A stretch of DNA of 64,000 nucleotides. Origin: Gammaproteobacteria bacterium (GTDB lineage Bacteria; Pseudomonadota; Gammaproteobacteria; Xanthomonadales; SZUA-36). The position numbers were made by a program, and so were the translations under genes. Below are positions 35,996 through 56,015 of the stretch, piece by piece; position 1 is the first letter of the stretch, and every line of letters begins with the position of its first letter. The stretch spans positions 1 through 64,000 of the forward strand of contig JAJFLB010000016.1 in NCBI GenBank assembly GCA_021772915.1, given 5' to 3'. The notes under the pieces were generated by a model. That model had not been told where the DNA came from. It saw nothing but the letters and a program-made list of their open reading frames with translations, and searched no databases.

Positions 35996-36205
35996 TCAGA
36001 GAGGTGTTACGTTCTCTGCCTGTGGTCCTTTCAGGCCTTCACCAACGGTGAATTCAACTGATTGTCCTTCTTTCAGGGTCTTACGGCCTTCGCCTACGAT
36101 CTGACGGAAGTGAACAAAAACGTCGCGCTCGCCTTCACGGGAAATAAAACCAAAACCCTTTTCGTCATTGAACCATTTAACGGTACCAGTGATTGTATCT
36201 GACAT
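35996..36205 (-). CDS. Cold-shock domain protein (CspA family)
   Basis: 69 residues. A complete OB-fold cold-shock domain with both RNA-binding motifs: [13 protein letters not shown] (RNP1, K-G-F-G-F) and DVFVHFRQI (RNP2, V-F-V-H-F). It acts as an RNA chaperone. The long leader (about 36206-36310) contains an ACCACC/GGTGGT hairpin, in keeping with post-transcriptional control of csp genes. Confidence 0.96.
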
Positions 36206-36692
36206 TTTATTAAGCTCTCTTTATAGCTGGTTGAAAAACCACCTTCCGGTGGTGACTGTGCTGGAGCAGAACGGGACCGGGGTATATCTGGAAGGAAGCA
36301 TAACAACCGTACAGACTAAACACTCAATCACTCGCCGCAACTGGCAGCGCGCACATTTTACATTGTTTCAATACACAAATGCCATAAAAACAGAACAATA
36401 TATGGCCAAGGTGCAAGCTCAAAGATTTTGGCAGGTGTGATAACGTGGGTCGTCGCGAGCATTTTTACCCCCTCCGTAGGAGTGACGACGCAAGTCGTCG
36501 CGAACCTGGCCGGTTCCCGACGAGCGAGCTCGTCGGTCTCACAAGAGCATGGAATGAGCGATTATTCTTACCGTGGCGATCAGCCCCACGAATCCCTCCA
36601 CGCTGCGTTATACTTGTTGGTTTGGAACACTGTAACCAGGGAATACGGATAAAACCGCGACATCTGGGACTAACTACCTTACGGAGCACTGC
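36206..36692. other. 487-bp intergenic region with csp leader and REP elements
   Basis: The left part is the csp leader with a hairpin at 36238-36253. The middle (36310-36440) shows no feature. REP elements occupy 36441-36542. The remainder to 36692 holds the promoter and ribosome site (ACGGAG before ATG 36693) of hppD. Confidence 0.6.
36441..36542. repeat. REP elements: partial B, full B and inverted A
   Basis: 36441-36460 is a partial B-type copy (GGGTCGTCGCGAGC). 36476-36506 is a full B-type (GTAGGAGTGACGACG ... CGTCGCGAAC). 36513-36542 is an inverted A-type (TTCCCGACGAGC ... CGTCGGTC). Confidence 0.8.
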
Positions 36693-37778
36693 ATGGCTGA
36701 CCTGTTCGACAACCCCATGGGATTGGACGGCTTCGAATTCGTCGAATTCGCATCCCCTGCCCCAGGGATTCTGGAGCCTGTATTCGATATGCTGGGTTTC
36801 AGCCTGGTGGCAAGACACCGTTCCAAGAATGTGAGTCTGTACCGCCAGGGTGGTATCAATTTCATTCTCAATGAGGAGCCAGGCAGCCACGCGGCATTTT
36901 TTGCTGAAGAACACGGTCCCTGCGCCTGTGGTATGGCTTTTCGTGTTAAGGATGCACACCACGCGTACCAGCGGGCACTTGAACTGGGTGCCCAGGCGAT
37001 CGACATCCCTACCGGACCCATGGAGCTGCGTTTACCCGCGATCAAGGGAATTGGCGGCGCACCACTGTACCTGATCGACCGTTACCGGCAGGGCATGAGT
37101 TTTTACGACATCGACTTTGAGTTCATCCAGGACGTTGATCGTCGCCCGCAGGGTTGTGGGTTCAATTCTATCGACCACCTGACCCACAATGTCTATCGTG
37201 GACGGATGGAGTATTGGGGAGATTTTTACGAACGTATTTTCAATTTCCGCGAAATCCGCTACTTTGACATCAAGGGGGAGTACACCGGCCTTCTATCCAA
37301 GGCGATGACGGCTCCTGATGGCAAAATACGAATCCCCCTGAACGAGGAGTCGGGTAAAAGCAGCGGCCAGATTGAAGAATACCTGATGGCCTACAACGGC
37401 GAAGGAATTCAGCACATTGCCCTGATATGCGATGATCTGTTTGAGTGCTGGGATGCACTCAAGGCCAAGGGCATACCATTTATGACACCACCGCCCAGCA
37501 CCTACTACGAGGCATTGGAAGAGCGTTTGCCCGGCCATGGCGAGCCGGTTGAGGAACTTGCAAAAAGGGGCATCCTGCTGGATGGCTCAACTGCCGATGC
37601 TGATCCGCGTCTGTTGCTGCAAATATTTTCTGAAACCATGGTCGGACCGTTGTTTTTTGAATTCATCCAACGCAAGAAAGATGAGGGTTTCGGTGAAGGC
37701 AATTTTGCAGCTTTATTTGAATCAATGGAGCGAGACCAGTTGCGCCGCGGCGTGATTGATACCGCAGACGTAAACTGA
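36693..37778 (+). CDS. hppD: 4-hydroxyphenylpyruvate dioxygenase
   Basis: 361 residues, the usual bacterial length. The two VOC domains and the iron ligands are present: His162 ([12 protein letters not shown]), His241 ([10 protein letters not shown]) and Glu323 ([10 protein letters not shown]). It converts 4-hydroxyphenylpyruvate to homogentisate in tyrosine catabolism. No homogentisate dioxygenase is adjacent, so the product may also feed melanin-type pigment. The gene that follows after 32 bp is another VOC protein, probably in the same operon. Confidence 0.96.
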
Positions 37779-37810
37779 GCCTGGCTGGAACCAGAACTGG
37801 AATCACCGAT

Positions 37811-38374
37811 ATGAACATTAAAAGGATTCACCACGTTGCCTACCGTTGTAGAGATGCCAAAGAAACGGTTGAGTTTTACCAACAGGTGCTTGACATGGAC
37901 CTGGTACTGGCCATCTCCGAAGACCAGGTACCCAGCACCAAGGCGCCCGATCCCTACATGCATGTCTTCATGGATGCGGGGCAAGGCAACGTGCTGGCAT
38001 TTTTTGAAATCCCCAACTCACCACCCATGGGTCGCGATGAGAATACCCCGGAATGGGTACAGCACATCGCCTTCGAAGTCGAAGACATGGACGCACTTCT
38101 GGCGGCAAAGGAACGTATCGAAGCAGCCGGCCTGGAGGTTATCGGCCCCGTCGACCATCATATTTTCAAATCGATCTACTTTTTTGATCCCAGCGGCCAT
38201 CGCCTGGAACTGGCAGCCAATACTGACCACCCGGGAGTGCTGGAGAAGTTGCATGAAATTGCACCCGCGATGATTGAGGAATGGAGCCAAACCAGGCGCG
38301 CACCAAAACACGCAGCATTTTTGCACGAGCACGAATTCAACCTGGACGCCGCACAAGATCAAACAAAACCGTAG
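37811..38374 (+). CDS. VOC family dioxygenase/lyase-like protein
   Basis: 187 residues. Metal-site motifs: IHHVAYRCRDAKETVEFY at the N-terminus, WVQHIAFEVEDMDALL in the middle and DPSGHRLELAAN near 140. Resembles the glyoxalase/extradiol-type VOC proteins often next to hppD. The stop TAG (38372-38374) is part of the following REP element. Confidence 0.88.
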   Translation: MNIKRIHHVAYRCRDAKETVEFYQQVLDMDLVLAISEDQVPSTKAPDPYMHVFMDAGQGNVLAFFEIPNSPPMGRDENTPEWVQHIAFEVEDMDALLAAKERIEAAGLEVIGPVDHHIFKSIYFFDPSGHRLELAANTDHPGVLEKLHEIAPAMIEEWSQTRRAPKHAAFLHEHEFNLDAAQDQTKP

Positions 38375-38402
38375 GACCGACGAGCAAGCTCGTCGGGAAC
38401 CT
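38371..38402 (+). repeat. REP element (A-type)
   Basis: GTAGGACCGACGAGCAAGCT then CGTCGGGAACC. The cleanest copy of the A-type consensus in the window. It provides the stop codon of the gene at 37811. Confidence 0.95.
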
Positions 38403-38488
38403 TTAAAGCCTCTAACAGACCCATCAACCCCAGTGTCAAAAACCCCACGTGCTAAACTGCCCCATCGCCAAATCTTGCGGTCAATTAA

Positions 38489-39766
38489 TTGAAAGTTCTC
38501 CACATTGGCAAGTACTTTTCACCGTTCAGCGGTGGCCTGGAAAACTATATGCGTGATGCCATGGTGGCCTTGCGTCAACACGGAATCGAGTCCGCCGCGC
38601 TGGTACACCGTCATAGCTGGTCACTGACAACACTAAGAGATAAATTCAGTGCCAACGGTCACGACTTCCCGCTGGTCAGAACAGGCAGATGGGCACATCT
38701 GGCATTTACACCAATCAGCCCCACCCTGCCCTGGCATTTGTGGCGACTAATACGGTCATTCAAACCCGACATCCTGCATTTGCATCTACCCAATCCTTCG
38801 GTTTTCTGGGTTCTGTCATTCCCAACCGCGCGACGTTTGCCCTGGGTCGTACATTGGCACGCAGATGTTATAAGCACAGAGCAAGGCTGGCTGGTGAAAC
38901 TGCTTTACAGACTCTACCGTCCATTTGAACGCGCAGTACTGCGAGCCGCTGATGCGATTGTAGTGACCTCCCAGCCTTACCTTGAGCACAGTGAACCGTT
39001 ACAAGAATTTGAATCGAAGTGTAAGGTCGTACCGCTGGGTGTTGACGTAAGGCGATTCCGTAGGACCGACGAGCCTGCCCGTCGGGAACATCAGGAAACG
39101 AGTTGGACTGACAAGCTAGCGGGTCGGAAACAAAAGGGCTTCCCGACGACGGAGTCGTCGGTCCTACATGAGACCAGCTTCCCGACGACCGGGTCGTCGG
39201 TCCTACGGGTTCTTGCTGTGGGTCGGTTGACCTACTATAAGGGTTTTCGTTACCTGATTGAGGCGGCAGCGCGGTGTCCGAACATTCGGGTCGATATCGT
39301 GGGGCGTGGAGACGAAGCGGATAAGCTCCAGGCACTCACGACTTCCTTAAACCTCAAAGACAGGGTAACCTTTCACGGCGTTTTGAGTGATGCTGAGCTG
39401 GTTCAACAAATGCACAACTGCGATTGCTTGTGCCTGCCGTCAATAGAACGCACCGAGGCCTTTGGCATAGTGCTGTTAGAGGCCATGTATTTTGGAAAAG
39501 CGTCCATCATTAGCGACTTGCCCGGCTCAGGTATGGGTTGGATTGTAGATGACGGTATCACTGGTATTAAGGTAAGACCAGCCGACGCTCATGCACTGGC
39601 CGCGGCCCTGGGAGAATTGGATATCGACCGTGAGAACCTACTGACAATGGGACAGCGCGGGAAAGAAAAGTTTACCCGGCAATTTGAGATTAGCCATGTT
39701 GTCAAGGGATTGGTGGAGGTTTATGAAAATGTCACGTTCACTGATGCAACGCGAATTGAATCCTGA
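38489..39766 (+). CDS. GT4 glycosyltransferase carrying four in-frame REP elements
   Basis: 425 residues, TTG start (VLHIGKYFSPFSGGLENY begins the N-terminal GT-B domain; no ATG is near). The N-terminal domain runs to about 190 (WVVHWHADVIS, VVPLGVDVRRF) and the C-terminal domain starts at about 242 (VLAVGRLTYYKGFRYLIEAA, with the E-x7-E region SIERTEAFGIVLLEAM). In typical GT4 enzymes these two segments are joined directly. Here about 50 residues rich in Arg, Thr and Ser are encoded entirely by four REP copies (39060-39208). The frame is kept, so a working enzyme is plausible. First gene of the glycan locus. Confidence 0.88.
   Translation: MKVLHIGKYFSPFSGGLENYMRDAMVALRQHGIESAALVHRHSWSLTTLRDKFSANGHDFPLVRTGRWAHLAFTPISPTLPWHLWRLIRSFKPDILHLHLPNPSVFWVLSFPTARRLPWVVHWHADVISTEQGWLVKLLYRLYRPFERAVLRAADAIVVTSQPYLEHSEPLQEFESKCKVVPLGVDVRRFRRTDEPARREHQETSWTDKLAGRKQKGFPTTESSVLHETSFPTTGSSVLRVLAVGRLTYYKGFRYLIEAAARCPNIRVDIVGRGDEADKLQALTTSLNLKDRVTFHGVLSDAELVQQMHNCDCLCLPSIERTEAFGIVLLEAMYFGKASIISDLPGSGMGWIVDDGITGIKVRPADAHALAAALGELDIDRENLLTMGQRGKEKFTRQFEISHVVKGLVEVYENVTFTDATRIES
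39060..39208. repeat. Four REP copies inside a coding sequence
   Basis: Copies at 39060-39089 (forward), 39100-39131 (degenerate, forward), 39138-39168 and 39177-39207 (reverse, ending CGTCGGTCCTAC). Together about 149 bp add about 50 codons without a stop or net frame change, exactly at the boundary between the two GT-B domains of the glycosyltransferase. Confidence 0.92.
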
Positions 39767-39772
39767 GTCTTT

Positions 39773-40498
39773 ATGAAACCATTGCAGGCTACCAACCCTA
39801 ACAAAGGCACAGAGTCGTCCCTACCCAATTGCGTAGTGGTCATTCCGGCACACAATGAGTCTTTGGATATTGTATCTGTAATCAATGAGTTGCGTAGCGT
39901 TAGTAGCTTCCCAATAGTTGTTGTTGACGATGCCAGCACCGATAACACCATTGAAAAAGCCGAAAAGGCCGGTGCGATTGTAGTGCCCCTCGTTGTCCAA
40001 CTTGGCGCCTGGGGGGCTACTCAAACGGGTTTACGCTATGCGCTCAAACACGACTATGCCTATGTCATTACCATGGACGCCGATGGCCAGCACAAGGCAG
40101 CATCCTTGCCGAAGTTGCTCGAGCCCGTGATCAAAAATGAGGCCGATGTCTGTATAGGTGCCTGCACACAGCGTGGCTCGTTATCACGTAAGATTGCGTG
40201 GGCTTTGATGAAACGCGTCTCTGGACTCAGGCTCGAAGACTTGACATCTGGATTCCGTGTATACGACCGCCGTGCCATCAGCAAACTCTCCAGGTGGCAA
40301 GCCACATTGCTGGAATACCAGGATGTAGGTGTGCTGGCGATGTTGAAGGATTCGGGGCTGCGTATTAAAGATGTGGAAGTCAATATGCTGCAACGCCAGC
40401 ATGGCATTTCAAGGATATTTTATTCTTGGACAGCAGTCTTATACTACATGTTTTACACCTTGTTACTTAGTTTCACTAAACGCAGATTTAAGAAGTAG
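39773..40498 (+). CDS. GT2 glycosyltransferase (dolichol-phosphate-mannose-synthase-like)
   Basis: 241 residues. GT-A fold: VVIPAHNESLDIVSVI, VVVDDASTDNT and ITMDADGQHKAA (DxD metal site). The C-terminus has a single hydrophobic stretch (WTAVLYYMFYTLLLSF) for membrane contact. Family members transfer sugars to polyprenyl phosphate. It is 6 bp downstream of the previous glycosyltransferase. A DUF2304 protein follows, a common genomic partner of this family. Confidence 0.9.
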   Translation: MKPLQATNPNKGTESSLPNCVVVIPAHNESLDIVSVINELRSVSSFPIVVVDDASTDNTIEKAEKAGAIVVPLVVQLGAWGATQTGLRYALKHDYAYVITMDADGQHKAASLPKLLEPVIKNEADVCIGACTQRGSLSRKIAWALMKRVSGLRLEDLTSGFRVYDRRAISKLSRWQATLLEYQDVGVLAMLKDSGLRIKDVEVNMLQRQHGISRIFYSWTAVLYYMFYTLLLSFTKRRFKK

Positions 40499-40597
40499 TT
40501 TCGCCATTATAGGGTGGTCGGCTCTAGGACCGCTGCCTTATAATACGTAAGTTAGGATTTTTCGGCGGGGATATAGATTAGTGGTAAAGAGCAGGTA

Positions 40598-40993
40598 GTG
40601 GTTACATTGGTCACAAGCGTTCTCGGTCTGAGCGCTGCGCTCGTTATCGTTGTCCTGATTCGCAGGGACCATCTGCACGTACGTTATGGCTTGTGGTGGA
40701 TGACCGCGGCTATAGGATTTGCACTGCTGGGTCTGTTCCCCACGTTTTTTGACCGTTTTTCACATTACCTGGGGGTGGCCTACCCTCCCATATTGGCCGT
40801 TGCCATCGCAATCATATTGTTGGTGATAAAAATTCTGGTAATGGATATCGAGCGCTCCCGTAATGTCATTCGTTTACAACGTCTTACCCAACGCGTCGCG
40901 TTGCTAGAAGCCGATCTGCGTGAAACTCAAGGTAAGTCACGTGAGCCCGAAGACGGATCGAGCCACGGCGAAATAGATGATGAGAAAAGTTAG
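40598..40993 (+). CDS. DUF2304 membrane protein
   Basis: 131 residues, GTG start. Three membrane segments (VTSVLGLSAALVIVVLI, WWMTAAIGFALLGLFP, PPILAVAIAIILLVIKIL) followed by a charged helical tail. The arginine-rich HVRYGLWW after the first helix is family-typical. DUF2304 proteins are usually encoded next to polyprenyl-phosphate GT2 enzymes, as here, and may assist them. No other role is known. Confidence 0.85.
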   Translation: MVTLVTSVLGLSAALVIVVLIRRDHLHVRYGLWWMTAAIGFALLGLFPTFFDRFSHYLGVAYPPILAVAIAIILLVIKILVMDIERSRNVIRLQRLTQRVALLEADLRETQGKSREPEDGSSHGEIDDEKS

Positions 40994-41053
40994 CGGTTTC
41001 ATAATCAGCGTTACACCAGTAGTTCTTCACAACATGAAATCTACGACCACGCT

Positions 41054-42541
41054 ATGGGCTGGCTGACGCTTCTAATTGGCTTATTATTGCCTTGGTTGGC
41101 TGGTGTGCTGTGGCTGGCACTGGCAGAGTCACATCTGAGTCAACACCACTGTCCCCACCGTCTGCGCCAGGCCGGTTACGGGTTTTTCCTCGGTTACGCT
41201 ATTTTGTTCCTGACCATCCTGTTGGCCCATCATTTGACTGGAACGGTATCCTGGCCCGGATTGATGCTTTTCCTGCTGCTACTTTCCGCCGTGGCAGCAA
41301 GCGCATTGTGGCTCGGCCGGGGCAACACAGTCGAAGCACACTGGCACAGCAATGGCCCGCCTGCCAGCGCTGGCGCAAAAACGCTCACCATTGTTTTGGC
41401 CGTCTGGATAGGAATTCACCTTACCTTTGTAACCATCGAAATCCTTACCCAGCCAGTCTACCCCTGGGACGCCTGGCTGGCTTGGGTATACCGAGCCAAG
41501 GCGTGGTTTCTGGCAGGTGGCATGGTCGATGTAGTCAGTTCCGGGGACTGGGCTACGGCATCTTCGACAGAAATCTACACCATCAATGCCTGGATGTACC
41601 CACGTTTTCCATCGGTCATTCCGTACTGGGCTGCACTCAGCCTTGGGCGCTGGAGTGAAACCCTGATCAATTTGCCGGTACTCACCGCTGGACTCGCCAT
41701 TGGTATGGCCCTTTATGGGCAGTGCCGAGAGTACGGAATGAGTAAGCTAGCCTGTTTGAGTGCTTGCTATCTGCTTTATTCCATTCCTCTGGTTGGCACC
41801 CACCTTGCTTTGGCGGGTTATGCCGATATCTGGATGGCGGGGTTTACTGGGCTGGGATTTGTGGCAGTTATACGGGGAAGCACACCGCCTGCGGGTTTTA
41901 GCAGACTGAATTTCCAAACCGTGCTCGGCTTGTTAATGGTTGGGCTGAGCGTTGTAGTCAAAAATGAGGGTGCCGTGTGGTTACTTGCGGTCTTTGCATT
42001 GTTGGCGTTGACAAGCTTTCGGCTGCGTGTGTCTTTTTTGGGCCTGGTGGTATTGTCGGCAATGATGTTAATGGCTTCGGCAATGGGATTCACCCACATC
42101 GACCTGCCACTCATTGGTGTTTTGGGTGTCATTGACGGCAGGCTTCTTATCCCTTTCATCGGTAGTTTTAAGCTGGAAGTGCATGAAATCTGGCAAGTGT
42201 ATTGGGAAAACTTCATGGCCATGGGCAATTGGAACCTGTTCTGGTTGGCGGTGGTTGCCAGTCCGTTACTTGGCTATTTCCTGTCCGGCAAATCAAAGGG
42301 TAACTATCGTGCCTGGCAAGTTTGTTTTGTATTTGTTCTTATTTTTCTGGCCACGCAAGTGTTTATTTTCGGCTTTACTGACCAGGGCTTGTGGGCAGAC
42401 ACCTATACCGCCGTTAACCGATTGCCGTTGCATTTTGTTCCAGCGCTGCTTTTCGTTGTGTTAGTCACTGCATCAGCCAGTTGGGTAAACATCGAAAGCC
42501 GCGAGCGGACAACGAGAAACCACACTGACAGTGCTTTATAA
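41054..42541 (+). CDS. GT-C-fold membrane glycosyltransferase-like protein
   Basis: 495 residues with about 10-12 membrane segments. The early loop PVYPWDAWLAWVYRAKAWF, with the acidic PWDAW, is typical of GT39/ArnT-like enzymes that use polyprenyl-linked donors. The neighbouring polyprenyl-phosphate GT2 would make such a donor. It overlaps the next gene by 11 bp. Confidence 0.8.
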   Translation: MGWLTLLIGLLLPWLAGVLWLALAESHLSQHHCPHRLRQAGYGFFLGYAILFLTILLAHHLTGTVSWPGLMLFLLLLSAVAASALWLGRGNTVEAHWHSNGPPASAGAKTLTIVLAVWIGIHLTFVTIEILTQPVYPWDAWLAWVYRAKAWFLAGGMVDVVSSGDWATASSTEIYTINAWMYPRFPSVIPYWAALSLGRWSETLINLPVLTAGLAIGMALYGQCREYGMSKLACLSACYLLYSIPLVGTHLALAGYADIWMAGFTGLGFVAVIRGSTPPAGFSRLNFQTVLGLLMVGLSVVVKNEGAVWLLAVFALLALTSFRLRVSFLGLVVLSAMMLMASAMGFTHIDLPLIGVLGVIDGRLLIPFIGSFKLEVHEIWQVYWENFMAMGNWNLFWLAVVASPLLGYFLSGKSKGNYRAWQVCFVFVLIFLATQVFIFGFTDQGLWADTYTAVNRLPLHFVPALLFVVLVTASASWVNIESRERTTRNHTDSAL

Positions 42542-43712
42542 CACCGTAAAACAATTGACGTTCACTGCCCTGGTCGCTGCAGTTGTGGTGGTTACAGCTG
42601 TGTTGGTTTTTGTCAATGTGAATCTGCCGGATAACCCTGGCGAGGCCCTGGATTTTCAGGCTGGCAGTTTTCAATTTGCCTTTGGCTCTGGTCATCCAGT
42701 CGCCGATCGGATGGTAATTGATGATTACGTCGATGGCTCTGTACTCCTCACCAGCGGTCCGGTAAGTATTCAGGCCAAAAAAAATAGCATACTCAAGTAT
42801 ACGTGGTTACCGACCAAGCTCATCCAGGAAGCGGTATTTTTCTGGCGTCAAAAAAATGTTACCGATGAAGTGATTCGAACCAGCATCCATCTTGCCGGCA
42901 CCCATTACGTGAACTTATCATTACACCCTGATTGGTACGGCGAAATCACTGAATTCGGCTTTCTGTTAATAGACGAAAGCAGTAGCGGACATAAACAAGG
43001 AAGTGTAGAGGTCGGCCCGCTGGCTCTCCTGCCCGACCATCTTGACATCCATTTGCAGTTGGTCTGGCAAGATTGGACAGTATTTGAAGAACGGACGCAA
43101 CAGTCCATTAATTTCCTGCACGGCGGCGGCCGCTCACAGGACATACCACTACCCATCGTGGTCAGCACTTGGTTGATTCTCACGATATTCTTGTTTTGGC
43201 TGACCGAGCGGTATGGCACACGACTTGGCCCAAAATGTAAACCTGGCGCCTATGTGTTGCTTTGCCTGGCAGCGTGGATGTTACTGGATGTTCGCTGGAC
43301 CACCAACAACCTTAGGCAAATAGGGTTCTCACTCCCCAAGCTGTGGCAGATGAGTGAGCAGCAACGATTAGCCAGTGACCTGGATGGAGAAATTTTTCAA
43401 TTTGTGGAAAATCTTAAATCTGAAATACTTGGCGGGAAAACATCCCGCGTCCTGATCGTTGGCAGCCAAGGCGTACCCGATTATTATTTGGAAAGGGCCA
43501 AGTATCATCTGTTGCCACATAGCGCGAATGTGACCCGCATGTTTGCCCCCAAGTCAATACTGAAATCACTCGACTTCGTCATTTGTTTTGGTCAACCCGA
43601 TAGCCTGGGCCAGGTCAGCGGCTGGAGTTCTTATTGGCAGCAAGGACTCGAACAGGTAAACACCAGTCAATGGGGTACTGTTTACAAAGTAAGAAAAGAC
43701 CATGACGATTAG
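42531..43712 (+). CDS. Membrane protein of unknown function, partner of the GT-C enzyme
   Basis: 393 residues, GTG start, overlapping the previous gene by 11 bp. One membrane helix at the N-terminus (LVAAVVVVTAVLVFVNVNL), a periplasm-size domain of about 180 residues, two helices around 205-255 (VVSTWLILTIFLFWL; YVLLCLAAWMLLDV) and a C-terminal soluble domain ending in strands. Not recognised. The overlap suggests it works with the GT-C enzyme. Confidence 0.75.
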   Translation: MLYNTVKQLTFTALVAAVVVVTAVLVFVNVNLPDNPGEALDFQAGSFQFAFGSGHPVADRMVIDDYVDGSVLLTSGPVSIQAKKNSILKYTWLPTKLIQEAVFFWRQKNVTDEVIRTSIHLAGTHYVNLSLHPDWYGEITEFGFLLIDESSSGHKQGSVEVGPLALLPDHLDIHLQLVWQDWTVFEERTQQSINFLHGGGRSQDIPLPIVVSTWLILTIFLFWLTERYGTRLGPKCKPGAYVLLCLAAWMLLDVRWTTNNLRQIGFSLPKLWQMSEQQRLASDLDGEIFQFVENLKSEILGGKTSRVLIVGSQGVPDYYLERAKYHLLPHSANVTRMFAPKSILKSLDFVICFGQPDSLGQVSGWSSYWQQGLEQVNTSQWGTVYKVRKDHDD

Positions 43713-43855
43713 TGAATACATCAATCATAGTGATCATGTCCGCTGCCCTGCCGGCGGGAACATTTCAATCTTGACTCCCGACAATCCAAGTTGCCTCCAA
43801 CCTAGTAGTCAATGCGAAAGACCGAGTCGTTCAACCCATAAAGAAGAACTGATTC

Positions 43856-44629
43856 GTGCATAGCAAAGTGATTTTTATTCATATCCCCAAGTGTGCAGGC
43901 TCGTCACTTAGTTATGCACTGGTGACGCATTTCGGTCGCGATAAGAGTTATCTGATTGGCAAAGACTGCCCCCACAATCAAATATTTTTCCCCCGCAAAG
44001 ACACCGCTGAAAAGGACTTTGTTTCAGGTCACAAGGGAGTAGAGTTTTATAAGTCAATCCAGAGTCCTTTGTTTATTTCTATTATTCGTGATCCTGTCTC
44101 AAGGGCTTTGTCACTTTACAACTACTATACCCAACCAGAAAATGCCGAAACTGAAGATGCGAGAATTATTCGCGAGGACCTGTTTAGTAAATGGCGAAGA
44201 AAGGGAATGGATCAAAACAGTTTGCGCCGCTCCATTGAAAAATCACCACAATTTCGTTATGAAATATCGAATGCGCAGTGCAGATACCTGAGCATCAGTA
44301 ACAAAAACTGGTTCTCTGCTGCTTTCAGACACTACCTGTCAAGAAAAAGCGTTGCAAACTTTGATTCGGCGCTTGCTACGATAAACAGTCACAGGTTTCT
44401 TATTGGAACACAAAAAGAGATTCACAGTCTTACTGTCAGACTGAGCGAAACCCTGAAAATTTCAGCGCTTGAAATTGGTCGCCTCAACACCAGTAAGGAC
44501 TTCTATGTAGATAGTTTTGACAGGGATGATGAATCTATCGAATTAATTATGCGCCTGAATATCGAAGACCAAAAGTTGTATCAATACATTGAAAACCAGC
44601 ATGATAGTGTATTTGACCACTCCCACTGA
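43856..44629 (+). CDS. Sulfotransferase family protein
   Basis: 257 residues, GTG start. IFIHIPKCAGSSLSYAL is the 5'-PAPS-binding loop of the heparan 2-O-sulfotransferase-like family, and SIIRDPVSRALSLYNYY is the 3'-PAPS motif (R-D-P). It would transfer sulfate to a sugar. From here the sequence becomes AT-richer than the left of the window, suggesting acquisition. Confidence 0.88.
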   Translation: MHSKVIFIHIPKCAGSSLSYALVTHFGRDKSYLIGKDCPHNQIFFPRKDTAEKDFVSGHKGVEFYKSIQSPLFISIIRDPVSRALSLYNYYTQPENAETEDARIIREDLFSKWRRKGMDQNSLRRSIEKSPQFRYEISNAQCRYLSISNKNWFSAAFRHYLSRKSVANFDSALATINSHRFLIGTQKEIHSLTVRLSETLKISALEIGRLNTSKDFYVDSFDRDDESIELIMRLNIEDQKLYQYIENQHDSVFDHSH

Positions 44630-44701
44630 TTAGCCACCGCAGATTCATAACCAAGTCCTGACTCAAAAATTAAGAACTGGGATTACAGGAATGCTTAGAT
44701 C

Positions 44702-45679
44702 CTATTGGGGAGTTGACACTGAAGGCGTCGTTCCAGAGATAAAATCCTTGTACGCCAAAGTGAGTGGGGCTAGCAAATGAAAGTCACCTCGAAAAACCAA
44801 TAGTAGACTCTTTATTAAATAACGCAACGGCATCATCACCCATAAACGGCGCGGGTAGTACATCCGGGTAAATTTCAGTGAGCTCAAATCAGAGTAATAT
44901 TCCGAAAGTACGGCTCGTTGCCGATCTTTAATACCGAGACTCTTACCGCCTGAATGCCGAACAAGCGCGTCTTTACACCACGCAATTTCCAAGTCTGACC
45001 CCAGTCGCTTTACGAGATCAAGTTCCTCGAAATATAGGAAAAAACTTTCATTTAGCCATTGACTCTGAGCTGCACCTGACATCTCCGAATTTCCAGGTAA
45101 AGCCTGCAGGTCGTTTTGTAACACTGACGCCGGAAAAAACATTGAAGCCCCCGCAACGTAATCAAATTCAACAGATGGAAGTGAATCACGTTGCGACAGC
45201 GGTGAGCCGCAACCGTACTGCCGGTAGGAGCTGACCCAGGTGTTATAAAAACAACCACCGGCGCACTGAATCGTCCTGCCGTCTGACTCAAGCAATGTTG
45301 CCCCCCAAACGCCGACATCGGGCCTATCATGTGCACATCTCAACAAGGCAGGAAGTGCAGCCTCATCTACCAGACAGTCGTTATTTAATAACCAAATATA
45401 ATCCGGGTTAAACTGCTCAAATATAGCCCGCAGATTGCCATTGTGCCCAGCCGCGAAACCCAGATTTTCAGGATTAACTCGCAAATGAACGCACGGCATT
45501 TCAGCCAGAGTTTCATATTGTTGTGTTTTGCCATATTGGCCGGGATCATTGTCCGCAACAAAAATCTCAACCGAGTATTGATCACGGGCTGCTTGAGCAC
45601 CACGCGACAGGCTTTGCACGCAGGCAATGGTGCATTGCATGCTGTTGAAGCTAAGTATACTGACTGCGATTTGCTTCAT
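44702..45679 (-). CDS. GT2 glycosyltransferase (rhamnosyltransferase-like)
   Basis: 325 residues from ATG 45679, chosen because it gives a 4-bp ATGA overlap with the preceding gene and begins the GT-A fold directly (MKQIAVSILSFNSMQCT). DXD region YIWLLNNDCLVDEAAL; then DYVAGASMFFP and EELDLVKRLGSDLEIAW (E-E-x-D-L region typical of rhamnosyltransferases). Cytoplasmic. Confidence 0.9.
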   Translation of the reverse strand: MKQIAVSILSFNSMQCTIACVQSLSRGAQAARDQYSVEIFVADNDPGQYGKTQQYETLAEMPCVHLRVNPENLGFAAGHNGNLRAIFEQFNPDYIWLLNNDCLVDEAALPALLRCAHDRPDVGVWGATLLESDGRTIQCAGGCFYNTWVSSYRQYGCGSPLSQRDSLPSVEFDYVAGASMFFPASVLQNDLQALPGNSEMSGAAQSQWLNESFFLYFEELDLVKRLGSDLEIAWCKDALVRHSGGKSLGIKDRQRAVLSEYYSDLSSLKFTRMYYPRRLWVMMPLRYLIKSLLLVFRGDFHLLAPLTLAYKDFISGTTPSVSTPQ

Positions 45680-46713
45680 TGGCGCGGTGTTCTTGGCAGC
45701 AGCAACATGCGCAAAACAAGTACGATATTGAGCAACCAGTACGAACGCCATACATTGCATCGTTGCAGTGCTTTTAGTCGTTGCCAACGTGTCGCAGTCA
45801 CAAGTCCCCGATATAGCTCTAGCGTGGTGTAGGCTTCCGAACTTCTGTCCAATCTGTCCGCCATTGCGGCCAGAAATGCCTCGGCCTGTCGTACTGTTCT
45901 TACAAATTCCCCATCACCACGTAACCATCCTCTATACCAATTGGTTAACGGATTTAGTCCGTGCAGGAGGGACTTGGCACCAATCGTGTTGTGGCTATGT
46001 TGACGGTACGTTGCCAATTTGTCTGTGCAGAATTCCAAACGCCCAAAATAACCCGCACAAAGAGCCAACCACCAATCGTGCATAATAGCCTCGTCAGAGA
46101 CAGGTAAAGCTATTTGCAACAGGGCACGGTTACACGCAAGCGCACATCCCGTAACCTCATTACGTGACAACAATCGCTGTGGATTATGCTGATCAGATGA
46201 GTGCAGTTGCATTAACCTGGCATAAGAATCATCAAGCGGTTCAAGGAACTCATTTGCCACGACCAAATCGTGGTGTACGAGACTTGGCACTTTGCCACGC
46301 CCTTCGAGCCGCTTCAACCTGGCCAACATTATTGACAGTTTGTCACTTTCCCAAATATCATCCTGATCGCAGCAAAACAGGTACTCGACCCCTTGTTCAT
46401 AAGCGAACCCCAACAAAACGGAAAAGTTAGCCAGGGCAGAACGTAGCTCAGCATCTGTTTGCCGGGTTTCTTCCGTCAGTGACAGTATTCGATGGTCCTT
46501 TTTGCAATAGCCCTGGATGATATCCAGTGTAGCGTCCGTCGAACCATCATCCCGTATGAATAAGGTCCAGTCAGAGTCGGTCTGGGCGATGATGCTGTCT
46601 AGTTGCTCAGCAAGAAACCTAGCTCCGTTGAAAGTCCCAAGAACAATGTAGGTGCAAGAGTTCAACTGCTCACCATGGTGGATTACGGCCTGTGTTAAGT
46701 GGCATATGTTCAA
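45676..46713 (-). CDS. GT2 glycosyltransferase
   Basis: 345 residues. TYIVLGTFNGARFLAEQLDSIIAQT, FIRDDGSTDATLDII and FCCDQDDIWESDKL (DQDD metal site) define the family, which includes rhamnosyl- and galactosyltransferases of O-antigen synthesis. Translationally coupled (ATGA) to the gene at 44702. Confidence 0.9.
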   Translation of the reverse strand: MNICHLTQAVIHHGEQLNSCTYIVLGTFNGARFLAEQLDSIIAQTDSDWTLFIRDDGSTDATLDIIQGYCKKDHRILSLTEETRQTDAELRSALANFSVLLGFAYEQGVEYLFCCDQDDIWESDKLSIMLARLKRLEGRGKVPSLVHHDLVVANEFLEPLDDSYARLMQLHSSDQHNPQRLLSRNEVTGCALACNRALLQIALPVSDEAIMHDWWLALCAGYFGRLEFCTDKLATYRQHSHNTIGAKSLLHGLNPLTNWYRGWLRGDGEFVRTVRQAEAFLAAMADRLDRSSEAYTTLELYRGLVTATRWQRLKALQRCNVWRSYWLLNIVLVLRMLLLPRTPRQ

Positions 46714-46719
46714 CGTACC

Positions 46720-46818
46720 ATATTGTCAATCAATTACCACCCGCAAAGTGCGGCAGGTCGAACCGCGCGGGATCTTGAAATTGAAGTGATGAAGGAGATC
46801 CAGGCAAGAAAGTGGTAA
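46720..46818 (+). pseudogene. Short reading-frame remnant, possibly a transposase end
   Basis: An in-frame stretch ending at TAA (46816-46818) reads HPQSAAGRTARDLEIEVMKE then IQARKW. The charged helical end resembles C-termini of some insertion-sequence transposases, but I cannot name a family. It has no start and lies in the gap between two minus-strand glycosyltransferases. The rest of the gap (46819-46966) shows nothing. Confidence 0.25.
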
Positions 46819-46966
46819 GCCCGCCGGCACGACGGGTGATGGCAAAAAAGTGTTTGGTAGGGGGAAGCATGTAGGAGGGACGTGGACCTCAACTCACTAC
46901 CCTACATTTTTTCGTGCTTTCATACGCAAAACTGCCGCGCCTCAAGATGCCTGACCTGGATTTGGG

Positions 46967-47818
46967 TCATTCGAATAAGAATGAAAATTCTGGCCGTGAC
47001 CTCAAAATTCTTTTGATGAAAGGGTGACTTTCTATTACAGAACCAAATCCCCCTAGCACAGGTGACTCATTATGACGCTTGTGCAATGCAGTGTAATGGA
47101 GACATGGATGAACGTTTATTGTTCTTGATACTTCATATGATGGCTCTAACCCAAATTTGTGAACACTCAGAGAAAAAGCAGTTTGCTCGACAAATCCCTC
47201 CCATAAATCCAGGAAATTGTTTGAATTCAGTCTACGAAAGATTTCCACCCATAAATCGACGAAATCAACTGCATATCTCTTATCGATACTTATTAGACTT
47301 GAATTGAAAAACTGAATGGTTTCATATCTTTTGCTTGGTATTTTTACATCAGCAACGGAAAAGAGATCTCTATACCTCCCCTTAAGTGCAAGCTCGCCTG
47401 GCCTTCCAATTTTTAGCGTATCAATAATTTCGGGGGAACCCAGGAACGCATCGACACAGCAATTATCAAGAAATATTCTGTCACTATCGAGAAACAATAC
47501 TCTTGAATTTTCAGTGTTTTCAAGATTGCCGACACACTTTATGGCAAGCGCCTTATTCATGTAGTAATTAGATTCATCATTTGTAATCTCATGAACCTCT
47601 GCGCCAAGTGTTTGCAAATAGTCTAATACCAGCTTATTTGGCCGCACTTCCACGTTGTCCGGAAATACAATGACAACACGAAAATTGCCGGAAACGTAAC
47701 ATTTTATGGAGGCCATGAGAGCGAGTGCCTCAGCTTCCAAAATGCCTTTTTGGCAAACCAGGGTAATGATTACTTCTTTCGGGTTTTCGCCAGGTGACTG
47801 TCCTTGTAAATAAATCAA
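46967..47818 (-). CDS. Probable GT-A-fold glycosyltransferase
   Basis: 283 residues. Not matched to a named family. VIITLVCQKGILEAEALALMASIKCY and VVIVFPDN look like the nucleotide-sugar half, SRVLFLDSDRIFLDN holds a DxD metal site, and FFNSSLISIDKR with FVEQTAFSLSV resemble GT8-like acceptor-side motifs. AT-rich like its neighbours. Confidence 0.7.
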   Translation of the reverse strand: MIYLQGQSPGENPKEVIITLVCQKGILEAEALALMASIKCYVSGNFRVVIVFPDNVEVRPNKLVLDYLQTLGAEVHEITNDESNYYMNKALAIKCVGNLENTENSRVLFLDSDRIFLDNCCVDAFLGSPEIIDTLKIGRPGELALKGRYRDLFSVADVKIPSKRYETIQFFNSSLISIDKRYAVDFVDLWVEIFRRLNSNNFLDLWEGFVEQTAFSLSVHKFGLEPSYEVSRTINVHPCLHYTALHKRHNESPVLGGFGSVIESHPFIKRILRSRPEFSFLFE

Positions 47819-48054
47819 ATTGTACCCCTTTGTAAAGCTTCGTTATTGGCAACAAATCTGGCATTTCCAAATTTCTAAAGAATGAGGAATAGGCTCAATA
47901 ATAGAGGCCGTTTTATTATCTGTCATCTCCTATACGGTAGTTTCCCCCATGCGGAAAACAATGCTTCAACTAACATTAACCCCAAGTACCTCATGTTTGC
48001 TTTATGTTCGTCAATTACTGTCAATGGTTTGTATAAGGCGTGGTTTAATTTGCC

Positions 48055-48831
48055 TTATACATTGTGATAGGTCGTATTTATCGGTTTCCCTAATAGATCT
48101 AAATCTACTTCATTCGACAGCCCTTTATTTAGGCAAATAAAATCTCCACCCAATTTAAAAATTGAATATTTCCTTTTTAAGAAATTAATTGAATCTCCTA
48201 TTTCTCCCTCTGATAAATGCTTATGCTCATACAAAACTACTGATGGATTGTATTTGTCTAAATCTAATTGTGAGAGAATTTTCCAATCATGACCCTCTGT
48301 GTCTATGTGCAAGAGGTCTATCTCCTGAATATTGTTCTGTTTAAAAAGTTCTCGTAACGTCAGTCCAGTTAACACAGTTTCTTCTATGTAAGGTTCTAAA
48401 ACACCATCCAAATGTTTTACTATATTGTCTTTGTTAAAAGAACCTAATTGGTCATACCAATTTGGTAATTGCGGGATACAAGCTTTCGCTTCTTCTCTAA
48501 CCGAATAGAAAATTTGTTGAGATCCATCATTTATTGCGACATTCTTAAAAGTGAACCTGGAATTTGAGCCATAGGTCTTTTTCAATTTTTCGAACAAATA
48601 GGGCACAGGCTCAACAAAGAGAGCTTTCCAGTTTTTGTTTTTTTTTATTAACTCATGTAACGGGTCCCCATGGACACCATCGTTTGAACCAATTTGGACA
48701 ATACTTGCCCCATCACCCCTAAGAATTTTGCTAATCCAGATTGACGGAGAGTCAAATTTGATAGGACTGGTAAAAGTAAGTTTTTGTTGAGCAAGTGTCA
48801 TTACACTGCCAACCAACGGTACTTTCTTCAA
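48055..48831 (-). CDS. FkbM family methyltransferase
   Basis: 258 residues. SAM-binding IVQIGSNDGVHGDPLHELI with VEPVPYLFEKLKK, then DLLHIDTEGHDWKILSQLDLDKYNPSVVLYEHKHL, the FkbM signature (D-T-E-G). The first usable start is TTG 48831; the first ATG would be at 48801 (MTLAQQK). An in-frame stop lies about 50 bp upstream. Probably O-methylates a glycan sugar. Confidence 0.85.
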   Translation of the reverse strand: MKKVPLVGSVMTLAQQKLTFTSPIKFDSPSIWISKILRGDGASIVQIGSNDGVHGDPLHELIKKNKNWKALFVEPVPYLFEKLKKTYGSNSRFTFKNVAINDGSQQIFYSVREEAKACIPQLPNWYDQLGSFNKDNIVKHLDGVLEPYIEETVLTGLTLRELFKQNNIQEIDLLHIDTEGHDWKILSQLDLDKYNPSVVLYEHKHLSEGEIGDSINFLKRKYSIFKLGGDFICLNKGLSNEVDLDLLGKPINTTYHNV

Positions 48832-49419
48832 AATGTTTTTAATTTTCTTTCTTCCGATTTGAACATTTGATTTGTCAAACGCAACTTAACTTCAGCATGA
48901 TCGACCTATGTTTAGGTTTCTTGCCAGCAAGTCTCTATCACAGATCGTAGCTATTATGTTTTTAGTTGTTATTAGCTTTTACGGCCTTATGACCAGCCCC
49001 CGACTTCCGTTCAAGCTTGAACTTAGTAGGGATCCTTAGTTTACGAGAAACCCCACTTTTGAGTTCAACTATTTATCGGGCGCATTACCAGACCACCGCC
49101 TCAAAAAATGTGCAAAAGGTAATTTACGTTATCTATCCTTTAGTATCGCAATGATCTTTTCTTCGGTTCATCGCTTGCGTTTCATCTAAGGCCGCCCATG
49201 AGCCAGAATAATGAGGAAATCTTCAATGCCTACGGTCCTGTTTATGGGAAGAGGATTGCCTAACAGACGTCACCGCGCCAGTGAAGCCTTTTATAATGAC
49301 ATAGCATGATTACACCTTGTTCACTTAATCCCTCAAAAAGGTCAGTTAAATACCAGCTAAAATTCGGAAAGTGATATAGTGCACGTGACAAATTTTAGAG
49401 AGTAAACGAACAAAAAATT
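48832..49419. other. 588-bp AT-rich intergenic region before the exporter genes
   Basis: Nothing conserved is recognised and no ops/JUMPstart sequence is seen. It presumably carries the promoter of the ABC exporter; TATAGT at about 49374 is a possible -10 element. A 21-codon reading frame at 49198-49263 (MSQNNEEIFNAYGPVYGKRI then A) may be the broken start of a lost gene. Confidence 0.5.
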
Positions 49420-50196
49420 ATGTTTATTTCCCGCGTGCACCTGGTGGAAGTGTTCTTCACCAAGTTAGTTTTTAACCTAAAGTCCGAGGCCTCCCAAACA
49501 TATCTAGCTTATATCTGGTGGATTCTGGAACCAGCCCTGATGTCAGTTGTTTTTTACGTAGTTTTTGATTTGTTCCTGGCTGGCAGGGTACCTAATTTTT
49601 TCATCTTCATAATCTGCGGTCAAATCCCGTTTCTTTGGTTTTCAAACAGTGTTAACAACGCATCCAAATCTATCATGGATGCCCACGGTCTAATTAATCA
49701 GGCCGCGATCCCCAAGCCTTTTTTTCCAATGCTGGTCGTATTTCAGGATGCATTCAAACAAGCCATTGTATTCACCACCATGATCATTTTTTTCAAGATT
49801 TACGGTATGGAAATAAGTTGGGTTTGGCTGAGTCTTGCAGTCATTATCTTGACACAGTTACTGCTGATAAGTGCAGCAGCCTTGTTGGTCGCCGCTATCA
49901 CGCCGTTTTTACCGGATTTCAAGTATTTGGTTTCAACCACCACCATGGCGCTGATGTTTGGATCGGGTGTATTTTACAGTTACAAGGATGTGCTGTTGCC
50001 ACAACACCAGCAATTTTTTTTGATGAACCCTGTTGCTAACCTGATCAAAAATTACCGACATGTATTGATGGAAAACACTTTGCCTGACTGGACCGCCTTA
50101 GGCTACATTTGTCTGGGCAGTTTGGCGCTTATTTTTATAATGACTTCATATTACCGAAGAACTGACACGCTTTACGCAAGACTAATTACACAATGA
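49420..50196 (+). CDS. ABC-2 polysaccharide export permease (Wzm/KpsM-like)
   Basis: 258 residues with six membrane segments and the ABC-2 permease pattern. An amphipathic N-terminal helix comes before the first segment, and the sequence around YLAYIWWILEPALMSVVFYVVF is typical of Wzm/RfbA-type transporters. It forms the membrane half of an exporter for a lipid-linked glycan, together with the ATPase that overlaps it by 4 bp. Confidence 0.92.
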   Translation: MFISRVHLVEVFFTKLVFNLKSEASQTYLAYIWWILEPALMSVVFYVVFDLFLAGRVPNFFIFIICGQIPFLWFSNSVNNASKSIMDAHGLINQAAIPKPFFPMLVVFQDAFKQAIVFTTMIIFFKIYGMEISWVWLSLAVIILTQLLLISAAALLVAAITPFLPDFKYLVSTTTMALMFGSGVFYSYKDVLLPQHQQFFLMNPVANLIKNYRHVLMENTLPDWTALGYICLGSLALIFIMTSYYRRTDTLYARLITQ

Positions 50197-50930
50197 CCGC
50201 GACAACTGCAGTAATGGAATTACGTGATGTCGCCGTGCGGTATAAAACCCGCAAATCATTCTTTCGCCACGACTACTTCACAGCGCTTGAAAACATAAGT
50301 TTTTCCATTATCAAGGGTGAAACACTGGGCGTAATTGGTGCGAATGGCTGTGGAAAGTCAACTCTCTTGAAAGTCTTGGCTAACATATATGGGGTTGATA
50401 GTGGTGAGGTCAGCTGGTACTGCCAACAGGTATCCTTGCTCTCCCTTACGCTGGGCTTTGATCCAGAGTTGTCCGGCCGAGATAACGCCATCATTAGCGG
50501 AATGCTCCTGGGTAGCCGAAGACAGGAAGTGCTCAACAAACTGGATGAGATTATTGAGTTTTCTGAGTTACATGAATTCATTGATAACCCCATAAAGACC
50601 TATTCGTCGGGAATGCTCTCCAGACTGGGATTTTCTGTTGCCCTAAAAATGGAATCAGAACTGCTTCTGATCGACGAAGTTTTAGCTGTCGGCGACAACA
50701 AATTCATGGACAGTGCCAAAGATGCAATGGCCGACAAGATTAACTCTGATCAAACAGTCGTGCTGGTGTCACACTCGTTGAGCCAGGTTAAAATGCTCTG
50801 TGACCGAACGTTATGGCTGGAAGGGGGTAAGCTCCAAATGATCGGCCCAACAGATCACGTTTTGGAAGAATATGAACTGTTTTTGAGAAATGATAACCAG
50901 TCATCAGTGTCCCATCGATTAATCGAATGA
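50193..50930 (+). CDS. ABC transporter ATPase for polysaccharide export (Wzt/KpsT-like)
   Basis: 245 residues, ATGA overlap with the permease. Walker A GANGCGKST, signature YSSGMLSRLGFSVAL, Walker B LLLIDEVLAVGD. It lacks the extra C-terminal glycan-binding domain of long Wzt proteins, so chain-end recognition is probably done elsewhere, or the exporter is of the capsule (KpsT) type. Confidence 0.93.
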   Translation: MTATTAVMELRDVAVRYKTRKSFFRHDYFTALENISFSIIKGETLGVIGANGCGKSTLLKVLANIYGVDSGEVSWYCQQVSLLSLTLGFDPELSGRDNAIISGMLLGSRRQEVLNKLDEIIEFSELHEFIDNPIKTYSSGMLSRLGFSVALKMESELLLIDEVLAVGDNKFMDSAKDAMADKINSDQTVVLVSHSLSQVKMLCDRTLWLEGGKLQMIGPTDHVLEEYELFLRNDNQSSVSHRLIE

Positions 50931-51164
50931 AAACAATTTCTTACTAAACCTCTCGCCCGACCACGGCGAAATCGCTTTGTAAGAGCGCATGATTTGAACG
51001 TAGTCTTCCTTGCATGATTGCCTCTTGATACCAATGCCATTAACATTGCTCAAATCAGGCTGGAAATCTCTCATGGAATTGCCAGATCTTAGGGCCAATG
51101 CTTCTTACTTAATTACCAAAGACTGCTGGATTTAAATCCACCCACAGCCACAAGGTCACTATCA

Positions 51165-53798
51165 ATGCGCCACGAAATTCGCACAGACCGTTACAAAATT
51201 GCCATTGTCATTACTTCCCTCGGTGCGGGCGGGGCCGAACGCGTAGCTGCAAATCAGGCGATCTATTTTGCTGATCGTGGTCACGGTGTAACTTTGGTAA
51301 CCCTTGATGGTGACTCAGCGGATCACTATTCCATAGAACACCAGAATCTCGTTCGAAAAAGATTCGCACGCGATGGGGCCAAAATCCTCTTTGAATTCAT
51401 TGACAAAGCAAAGTTTGACATCACCATAGATCACATCCACTGGGATGAAGGTCACTACGCGTTTTTTAAGCTAATGGGGAAGTCAATCAACAAATTTGTC
51501 ATTTTTGACCATACTTCCTATTTTTACCCTTTGTATTTCGACTGGCGCAGGCAGATGTTCTGTACCCGGACTGAAGCGTATGCGTATGCTGATGCAGTTG
51601 CCTGCCTGACCAGATATACCTGTCGTTTATTCAGGCAAAAGTCTCCACATGCAGTTCTGATGCCAAACGTTTTGAGTTACGACAGCAGTGCTATCGCAAA
51701 CCCACAGGAAAGTAAAAACATTGTTGCGGTTGGAAACTGGCAACGTCGCGAGAAAAGACTGGACAGATTACTTGAAGTATTTCAACGGGTTCTATTGAAA
51801 GAACCTTCGGCAACATTGACGATCGTCGGACCAATTTTTAAACATGAGATTGAAGACCAGCTAGAGGCCTTGGAAATTGACATGGCCAGGGTCAAAGCGG
51901 TTGGGAAGCAAGAAGAAGTGGAGCCATACTACCTGAAAGCTCGCCTGTGTTTGATGGTTTCGGAAGTCGAAGGTTTTGGCCTGGTTCTGACGGAGGCTGC
52001 TTTGCACGGACTTCCGAGGGTGGCGATGTCCATTAACGGACTGGAAGACATCATTGATCATGGAAACGATGGCTATTTGAGCCCACAAGGAGATATAGAC
52101 GCCTGTGCCAAATATGTTCTATCCATACTCAAGAACAACGAATTGGCGGTACGCCTGGGCCGAAGTGCGCGAGCCACAATTGATGCATTCAGAGTCGACA
52201 CCATCGGTGCCCGGTGGGAATGGCTAATTGATGCAGTTATCAATGCAGACCGGGATAGTGTTCTGGAATCAATTGAGAAAGACTGTAAAGTAAACAATGT
52301 TGATACAGTCGATCTCAACAGCATTTGTAATGAGTACGATGCCCAAATTGTATCGTTAATTCAGGGTTTCAATCAGTCAGGGTCGCCCTCGTATTCTGCA
52401 GTTGCTTTCCTAAGGGAATTGAAGCTCAAGCCCCAGGGCAAAAGCCAATATTCACTGATCGCCGGGCTACTCAGTAAACTGTCTCTACTGTTTGAGTCAC
52501 GAACCCAGGCAAGACATCTTAGGAAGTCCGCGTACTTTGATTCGAACTGGTATCAAACTCAATATCCAGATGTTGCCAGAGCCCGCATTGATCCTGCTCT
52601 GCACTATATTCTCCACGGCACAGAAGAAGGCAGGAACCCAGGCCCAGATTTTGGTACAAATAAATACCTGGACGAAAATTCTGGTTTGCTTGTTTCCGGA
52701 GCGAACCCATTGCTCCATTTCGAACAGTTGAACAAGGGAAAACCTCCGTCTGGTTCAACTCGACTCAAGAGAACAAAAAGGCCGTTACTCGGACACACCT
52801 TGCTGGAACGCGACCAGCTGTGGTTGGATGAATTTACTGTCGACCCTGGCTCATTGACCATACGTGTCCCAGACTGGCTTGGCATAAAACAGTCATCGGC
52901 TCAGTTCACTAAACCACACCATTCACTTGAGATAAAGGACGATCTGAACGACCTTGCAACTGATTATTATGCCCATCTGGTTGTGATGGCAAAGCCTCGA
53001 AAAATAGTAGTACAGGGTTTCCCATTGTGCTATGAGAATTTGCTTAGGAAAATCAGGAAAAAACTACCCGAAGTTGCGATTTACTGTATCTATCACGGTT
53101 CCTTCGTGCAGCAAAGAACCATTTATGAAAGAAGTAGCTTGCAAACCCTCTTCAAACTCCATAAAGAAGCAGTAATCAACCGGATAGGGTTTGTTAAAGA
53201 AGGAATGGATCAAACATTTAGGGAGTTGGGGGCGGATGCGGCATTCATTATGAACTATATTGGAACTATTCCAGTATCCGCATCCCCGGTAAGCGACAAC
53301 AGCATAGGCATCGTAGGTAGCGAATGGAATGAGCGCAAACCAATCTACCATCAGATCGCCGCATGTAAGCTATTTGACCATGATGAAATCAGAATAGTTG
53401 GCTCTGAAGACCACGGAATCGATTTCTGCAAGTTAATGAATATTAAGGCATCACACCTGGGAACAATTTCGCAGGCAAGTATGGCGGACTTCCTGGGCAA
53501 GAACGCTTTGAATCTATATGTCACGCTTTCGGAATGTGCCCCGATGGTTCCGTTGGAAAGCTTATCCTTGGGTGTTCCGTGTTTGTTTGGGCCAAATAAT
53601 CACTTTTTCAGGGACAATGAATACCTGAGATCCCGACTGGTAGTAGAAATCCCTGATTCCGAGTTGTGTATTGCGCAATCTGCGACGCAGGCACTCCAGG
53701 AACGTGAAGAAATAGTCTCCGAATATATCTTTTACGCCCGACAATACAACATTAGGGCACAAGCGAGTTATCGAAGGTTTATTGAGGAAGAAGTGTGA
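51165..53798 (+). CDS. Two-domain glycosyltransferase with a central DPxxHY repeat
   Basis: 877 residues. N-terminal GT4 unit about 1-360 (TSLGAGGAERVAANQA, VAVGNWQRREKRLDRLLEVF, VSEVEGFGLVLTEAALHG). A central module about 450-520 has two copies of a motif common in large glycosyltransferases (FDSNWYQTQYPDV, HYILHGTEEGRNPGPDF, NPLLHFEQLNKGK). A C-terminal GT-B-like unit about 590-870 follows (IVGSEWNERKPIYHQIA, VTLSECAPMVPLESLSLGVP). It may add two different sugars in turn. The last bases overlap the next gene by 4 bp. Confidence 0.85.
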   Translation: MRHEIRTDRYKIAIVITSLGAGGAERVAANQAIYFADRGHGVTLVTLDGDSADHYSIEHQNLVRKRFARDGAKILFEFIDKAKFDITIDHIHWDEGHYAFFKLMGKSINKFVIFDHTSYFYPLYFDWRRQMFCTRTEAYAYADAVACLTRYTCRLFRQKSPHAVLMPNVLSYDSSAIANPQESKNIVAVGNWQRREKRLDRLLEVFQRVLLKEPSATLTIVGPIFKHEIEDQLEALEIDMARVKAVGKQEEVEPYYLKARLCLMVSEVEGFGLVLTEAALHGLPRVAMSINGLEDIIDHGNDGYLSPQGDIDACAKYVLSILKNNELAVRLGRSARATIDAFRVDTIGARWEWLIDAVINADRDSVLESIEKDCKVNNVDTVDLNSICNEYDAQIVSLIQGFNQSGSPSYSAVAFLRELKLKPQGKSQYSLIAGLLSKLSLLFESRTQARHLRKSAYFDSNWYQTQYPDVARARIDPALHYILHGTEEGRNPGPDFGTNKYLDENSGLLVSGANPLLHFEQLNKGKPPSGSTRLKRTKRPLLGHTLLERDQLWLDEFTVDPGSLTIRVPDWLGIKQSSAQFTKPHHSLEIKDDLNDLATDYYAHLVVMAKPRKIVVQGFPLCYENLLRKIRKKLPEVAIYCIYHGSFVQQRTIYERSSLQTLFKLHKEAVINRIGFVKEGMDQTFRELGADAAFIMNYIGTIPVSASPVSDNSIGIVGSEWNERKPIYHQIAACKLFDHDEIRIVGSEDHGIDFCKLMNIKASHLGTISQASMADFLGKNALNLYVTLSECAPMVPLESLSLGVPCLFGPNNHFFRDNEYLRSRLVVEIPDSELCIAQSATQALQEREEIVSEYIFYARQYNIRAQASYRRFIEEEV

Positions 53799-54823: not shown

Positions 54824-54858
54824 ATCCTTTTCCGACCTATTCTAAAATAAAACCATGA

Positions 54859-55767: not shown

Positions 55768-56015
55768 GTTTTGTGTTCCACTGGTAGAAAGGGTTATTTC
55801 TGTTTGCGATCAAATTCGCAACAAACATCGTTACCGGGCCAACACTTTAGAGCGTTGCAATCTTAACATGATGATCTGGCCTCTATCGACAGAGGCACGG
55901 TTGCAGATGGTTCAGGGTGCCCTGACCTGTTCCAATACATCATCAATCGTTTTATCCTGTACATAAATGGCGCTGACCGGCTCTTCTAGGTACCGTTGTA
56001 ATGGGAGGATTGCGT

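Follow-up and report, generated by a model that had tools for sequence, protein, structure and literature searches.

Excerpts of PMC3733652 (BMC Genomics 2013) describe GTAG REPs that lie wholly within open reading frames in several species, more than half of them as dimers or groups. According to the same excerpts, the intragenic clusters encode 43 to 82 residues, the GTAG termini supply TAG stop codons, and placement in linkers or loops is proposed to make such elements neutral. The Rickettsia palindromic elements (RPEs) are presented in the available passages of PMC10969869 as small palindromic repeats in frame within many protein genes, and those of R. conorii carry a CGTC tag at their end (excerpts of PMC3733652). 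In gammaproteobacteria, the part of PMC2817692 considered here reports RAYTs flanked by REPs, which are abundant and occur in inverted pairs and tandem arrays.

In the 64,000-nucleotide stretch of gammaproteobacterial DNA analysed here (the window), a GT4-type (GT-B) glycosyltransferase gene, hereafter GT4, keeps its frame open across an array of four REPs. Judged against the excerpted text, this array is a further example of translated intragenic REPs, a kind known since 2013 (PMC3733652), with which it shares the in-frame reading, the grouping, the linker or loop sites and the TAG stops. It differs from the cases in those excerpts, a comparison that covers the text rather than the supplementary gene list, in its lineage and REP sequence, in its location within a GT-B enzyme, and in that replacement of the native sequence is demonstrated by orthologues. 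The original prediction had presented the locus as a rare case of REPs tolerated inside a gene; it is rare in the present genome, but the precedent in PMC3733652, even as excerpted, takes away the wider rarity. The same prediction had likened the array to the Rickettsia elements. As far as the excerpts describe the latter, the likeness is one of outcome, since both are palindromic and in frame within protein genes (three here: GT4, murD and icmF), but kinship is unsupported: the R. conorii elements carry the CGTC tag, whereas the present REPs have a GTAG head and a RAYT, and the GTAG head in place of that tag rules out membership of the Rickettsia group. Nothing essential separates the present genome from the gammaproteobacterial REP/REPIN-RAYT systems as they appear in the excerpts of PMC2817692, and it is best regarded as one more carrier. 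Our literature search returned no paper uniting a palindromic or REP element, a glycosyltransferase and an interdomain linker.

The GT4 gene occupies positions 38489–39766 of the forward strand and comprises 425 codons from a TTG start found at the same residue in its three closest relatives. Its N-terminal GT-B domain (38489–39058, codons 1–190) runs up to VPLGVDVRRF, and its C-terminal domain (39209–39766, codons 241–425 plus the stop) opens with VLAVGRLTYYKGF. Between them lie 150 nt of REP DNA (39059–39208, codons 191–240), which begin directly after VPLGVDVRRF, stop directly before VLAVGRL and contain no stop codon in the GT4 reading frame. The array consists of a forward copy (39058–39089, 91% identical to a REP at 38369–38400), a degenerate forward copy (39100–39131, 72% identical to the reference copy), and two reverse-strand copies (39138–39167 and 39177–39208) of which the first is 93% identical to the second; the outer end of the last copy is the inverted repeat of the outer end of the first. 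The forward copies are spaced 42 nt apart and the reverse copies 39 nt, both whole numbers of codons. Thus the original prediction of a frame kept open through four REPs holds, as does its placement of the array exactly between the two GT-B domains: Glyco_transf_4 (PF13439) ends at residue 189, having begun at residue 15, and Glycos_transf_1 (PF00534) covers residues 241–393, both above their Pfam cut-offs. The protein also carries EX7E (E323 and E331), the motif of GT4 (GT-B) glycosyltransferases, and thus belongs to GT4. It matched no NCBIfam equivalog at its cut-off and is best described as a predicted transferase, and an Rfam search of 36000–42500 gave no family above its gathering score. 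The tryptic peptide predicted for the array-encoded linker is GFPTTESSVLHETSFPTTGSSVLR.

The gene order around GT4 (HPPD, glyoxalase-like, GT4, GT2, DUF2304, membrane protein) is identical in three congeners, G005, G007 and G004, whose GT4 orthologues are 58–62% identical to ours; the GT2-type neighbour lies at 39773–40498 on the forward strand (PF00535). Downstream of the glycosyltransferase genes, GC content drops from ~0.52 to 0.39–0.48 across window positions 42000–60000, a segment that is perhaps a surface-polysaccharide island. In the present GT4, VVPLG and VLAVG lie 61 residues apart, compared with 28–30 in the three syntenic congeners, 23–32 in 18/18 aligned relatives (taken from 29 relative loci fetched), and 24–33 in all 48 loci spanning the linker in a separate search (51 loci, of which two were dropped for a stop in the merged stretch and one ends before the linker). 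The insert is therefore absent, and the linker shorter (23–33 residues), in all 66 rows, some genomes being shared between the two sets, and among these rows we found no unrelated linker of equal length. The congeners have a native linker of ~17–18 residues between RF and VLAVG, for example NGSTSVYDKPTPNDNKLQ, which is absent here. Their linkers resemble REPs no more than codon shuffles do (the REP score was reached by 55–211 of 300 shuffles). Since the three congeners' linkers are unrelated to REP and the distances shorter, the REP array has replaced ~17 native codons. The addition of about 50 residues originally predicted is accordingly right for what the REP DNA encodes, but, with the native linker lost, the net gain over the syntenic congeners is 31–33. 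An array wholly inside a conserved gene, with orthologues that lack it, places GT4 among intragenic REP cases.

We searched the whole genome with the pattern GTAGGACYGAYGAN6TCRTCGG, allowing ≤3 mismatches and using the reversed pattern as control. This gave 142 forward and 154 reverse matches (296 together) against 0+0 in the control, far beyond chance, which bears out the REP assignment. The elements have the form of GTAG REPs, with an imperfect palindrome of 20–40 bp behind a GTAG head, GTAGGACCGACGAGC..GCTCGTCGG. They are of high copy number, mostly intergenic and often arranged in inverted pairs or arrays: of 125 groups, 53 are pairs and 24 are larger. In nine congeners the counts stayed at control or background level, and a stricter CG form (≤1 mismatch) matched 1 of 369 genomes of the class, namely the present one, and none of the other 368 sampled. 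The genome contains a single RAYT gene (C8:93664–94137; L039 1417–1890), a 157-aa ORF with DHVHWL that scores 143.8 bits against NF047646 (cut-off 80) and is embedded on both sides in tandem REP arrays of the same family. The GTAG REPs have thus undergone a lineage-limited expansion, with this RAYT as their probable cognate. Elsewhere in the genome, a REP-derived minisatellite with a 30-bp period and ~12 copies lies between two genes (L163 ~3988–4400; C60 ~98990–99395), and a second REP array has a 78-bp spacing (C60:83354–83769).

An open frame through a REP is not in itself remarkable. Frames were open in 221/288 cases (77%) for single-REP groups and in 18/96 for groups of at least four REPs, compared with 28.5% of frames in 150-mers drawn at random from this DNA. 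Taken with the one chance in three that a length falls on whole codons, these rates make an in-frame array such as that in GT4 uncommon without calling for a special cause.

The GT4 gene, whose interdomain linker tolerates the REPs in frame, otherwise looks functional. The host species is represented by one genome, and constraint was measured against each of the three congeners: pN was 0.195–0.211 before the array and 0.212–0.231 after it, with pS of 0.73–0.79. On these values (pN ~0.2 and pS ~0.75, alike on both sides), the two halves carry the same purifying signature, in keeping with the predicted in-frame tolerance. Residues invariant over 41 homologues are retained, including E323 and E331. 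The AlphaFold model (mean pLDDT 89.8) has two confident domains, the N-terminal one mostly >90, joined by a disordered linker (residues 191–230 at 45–57). In the PDB it is matched best by GT-B enzymes, among them MshA, BshA and PimA; with these GT4 family members it has in common the Rossmann-like domains and the invariant glutamates, and it differs in an interdomain linker that is about twice as long and of REP sequence.

We surveyed 624,116 bases, made up of stretches picked around REP matches plus the window and covering 245 of the 296 loop-6 matches. With ≤3 mismatches allowed, the survey yielded 278 REPs, whereas the reversed control gave 1, and among these 278 two further genes, murD and icmF, were read through. 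In a smaller, earlier set of 251 REPs, 214 were intergenic, 31 lay at a gene edge and 6 fell within called genes. Of these six, icmF holds two, murD one and a transglutaminase-like gene one, as its last codons, and the other two are chance-like; GT4 was not among the six because the gene finder had cut it after the array. The two chance-like cases, three-mismatch matches at C8:102501 and C8:144653 in genes that by eye resemble an acyl-CoA dehydrogenase and a nucleoside hydrolase, look like ordinary conserved coding sequence and were set aside. Frames open over REPs at C1:6214–6348, C1:11999–12042, C8:94231, C16:42087–42204, C16:221945, C51:20705, C60:98889–99322 and C70:122240 were likewise not counted, having a weak or negative flank score or REPs near the N-terminus. 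In 28/408 called genes the TAG stop comes from a REP head. One of them is the glyoxalase-like gene upstream of GT4 (37811–38374), which ends in an intergenic forward REP of the array's own family (38369–38400, also delimited as 38371–38396).

In murD (C10:74500–75909; L137 4501–5907), one perfect REP, lying in the loop that precedes LPGEHNM, reads CRTDELAHREP. The protein exceeds the TIGR01087 cut-off and is the only high-scoring MurD match in the genome, the other matches listed being Mur-ligase relatives at 24–28%. Its loop has 47 residues, compared with 29–35 in the 22 relatives first aligned. When six of seven initially dropped rows were realigned, loops of 47 residues in the congener G007 and 39 in G001 appeared, both without a REP; the loop REP score was reached by 199/300 codon shuffles for G007 and by 0/300 for G000. 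An equally long, unrelated loop, not found in the 66 GT4 rows, was thus found for murD instead, and a gain in length unique to the present murD is no longer claimed. In icmF (fused isobutyryl-CoA mutase; L121 2609–6133, on C1), whose product exceeds the NF045497 cut-off, a forward-reverse REP pair lies between the GTPase and mutase parts. Only 3 of 29 other loci passed the motif filter. The gaps between matched pieces agreed in part with the motif-filtered comparison, but the full-length row of G014 showed a difference of just 3 codons from the query and that of G046 was longer. Linker length in icmF is thus freely variable, and a gain peculiar to the present gene is not claimed. The transglutaminase-like gene (named by eye; L146, C19:43850–45850) ends in the REP-encoded residues SRTDEYARREP and a stop. 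Its forward REP shares with those of murD and icmF the reading frame giving R-x-T-D, one of two mostly open forward REP frames. By these alignments, GT4 alone among the present cases has a length that clearly stands out.

The reading we favour, with a probability of roughly 0.85, is that an array of the genome's own GTAG REPs is translated and neutrally tolerated at a permissive GT4 hinge. It draws directly on the identity of the REPs, the open frame, the outlier linker length, the synteny, the equal constraint on both halves, the predicted integrity of the domains and the REP-flanked RAYT. A REP pair of this family, a unit of the REPIN or BIME type presumably moved by the RAYT, would have inserted into the interdomain linker codons; duplication and loss of ~17 native codons, in whichever order, would then have produced the forward-forward-reverse-reverse arrangement, and only a variant with a net length in multiples of three would have survived. 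Ribosomes would read through the array to give a 50-residue hydrophilic, disordered linker, and the product would be an ordinary GT4 enzyme, presumably active, with a longer and floppier hinge. The insert itself would have no needed function. GT4 would have survived because its hinge is permissive of unrelated sequence and because stops are absent from most REP frames.

An improbable alternative is that the array was recruited as a functional hinge and is kept by selection, either because its nested mRNA hairpin slows the ribosome between the domains and so paces stepwise folding, or because the longer linker, once the native one was lost, sets domain spacing and alters domain closure or acceptor reach. 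Consistent with this, the native linker is gone and the hairpin sits exactly at the domain boundary, with a folding energy of −83.1 kcal/mol, where shuffles average −59.9 (z-score −5.67). Such folding is, however, common to any REP array, and the remaining read-through sites, in murD and icmF, are merely loops already variable in length, for which reason tolerance is favoured over function. So stable a fold could also hinder translation, which counts against the favoured reading, as do a negative codon score over the N half, a crude measure, and the truncation of the gene after the array by the gene finder. About as improbable is a recent loss of function, in which the array inactivated GT4 and the frame stays open through youth or luck. 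In its favour, about one in five frames is open in large REP groups (18/96), so that an in-frame insert is possible in a dead gene, and the N-half codon score is negative. Against this, 425 codons run without a stop or frameshift, one copy is already degenerate, which suggests some age, the invariant residues are retained, and the array is placed precisely between the domains. Least credible is an assembly artefact, two loci joined or the copy number altered at the array: REPs are a standard site of misassembly and the genome is in 71 contigs, but the halves form one orthologous gene in conserved gene order and the array has no full-length match elsewhere in the genome (next best 77% over 76 bases); an error in the copy number within the array might still have occurred.

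Neutral tolerance of the array leaves existing knowledge unchanged in kind. What the locus adds is orthologue-based evidence of linker replacement at a GT-B hinge, together with the companion cases in murD and icmF. With syntenic sister genes that lack the insert, it provides a well-controlled example of mobile repeats turned into protein sequence at a permissive hinge. Since the REP expansion is absent from the sampled relatives, comparing the known REP stock of this genome with its in-frame survivors (GT4, murD and icmF) can measure which frames and sites proteins tolerate.
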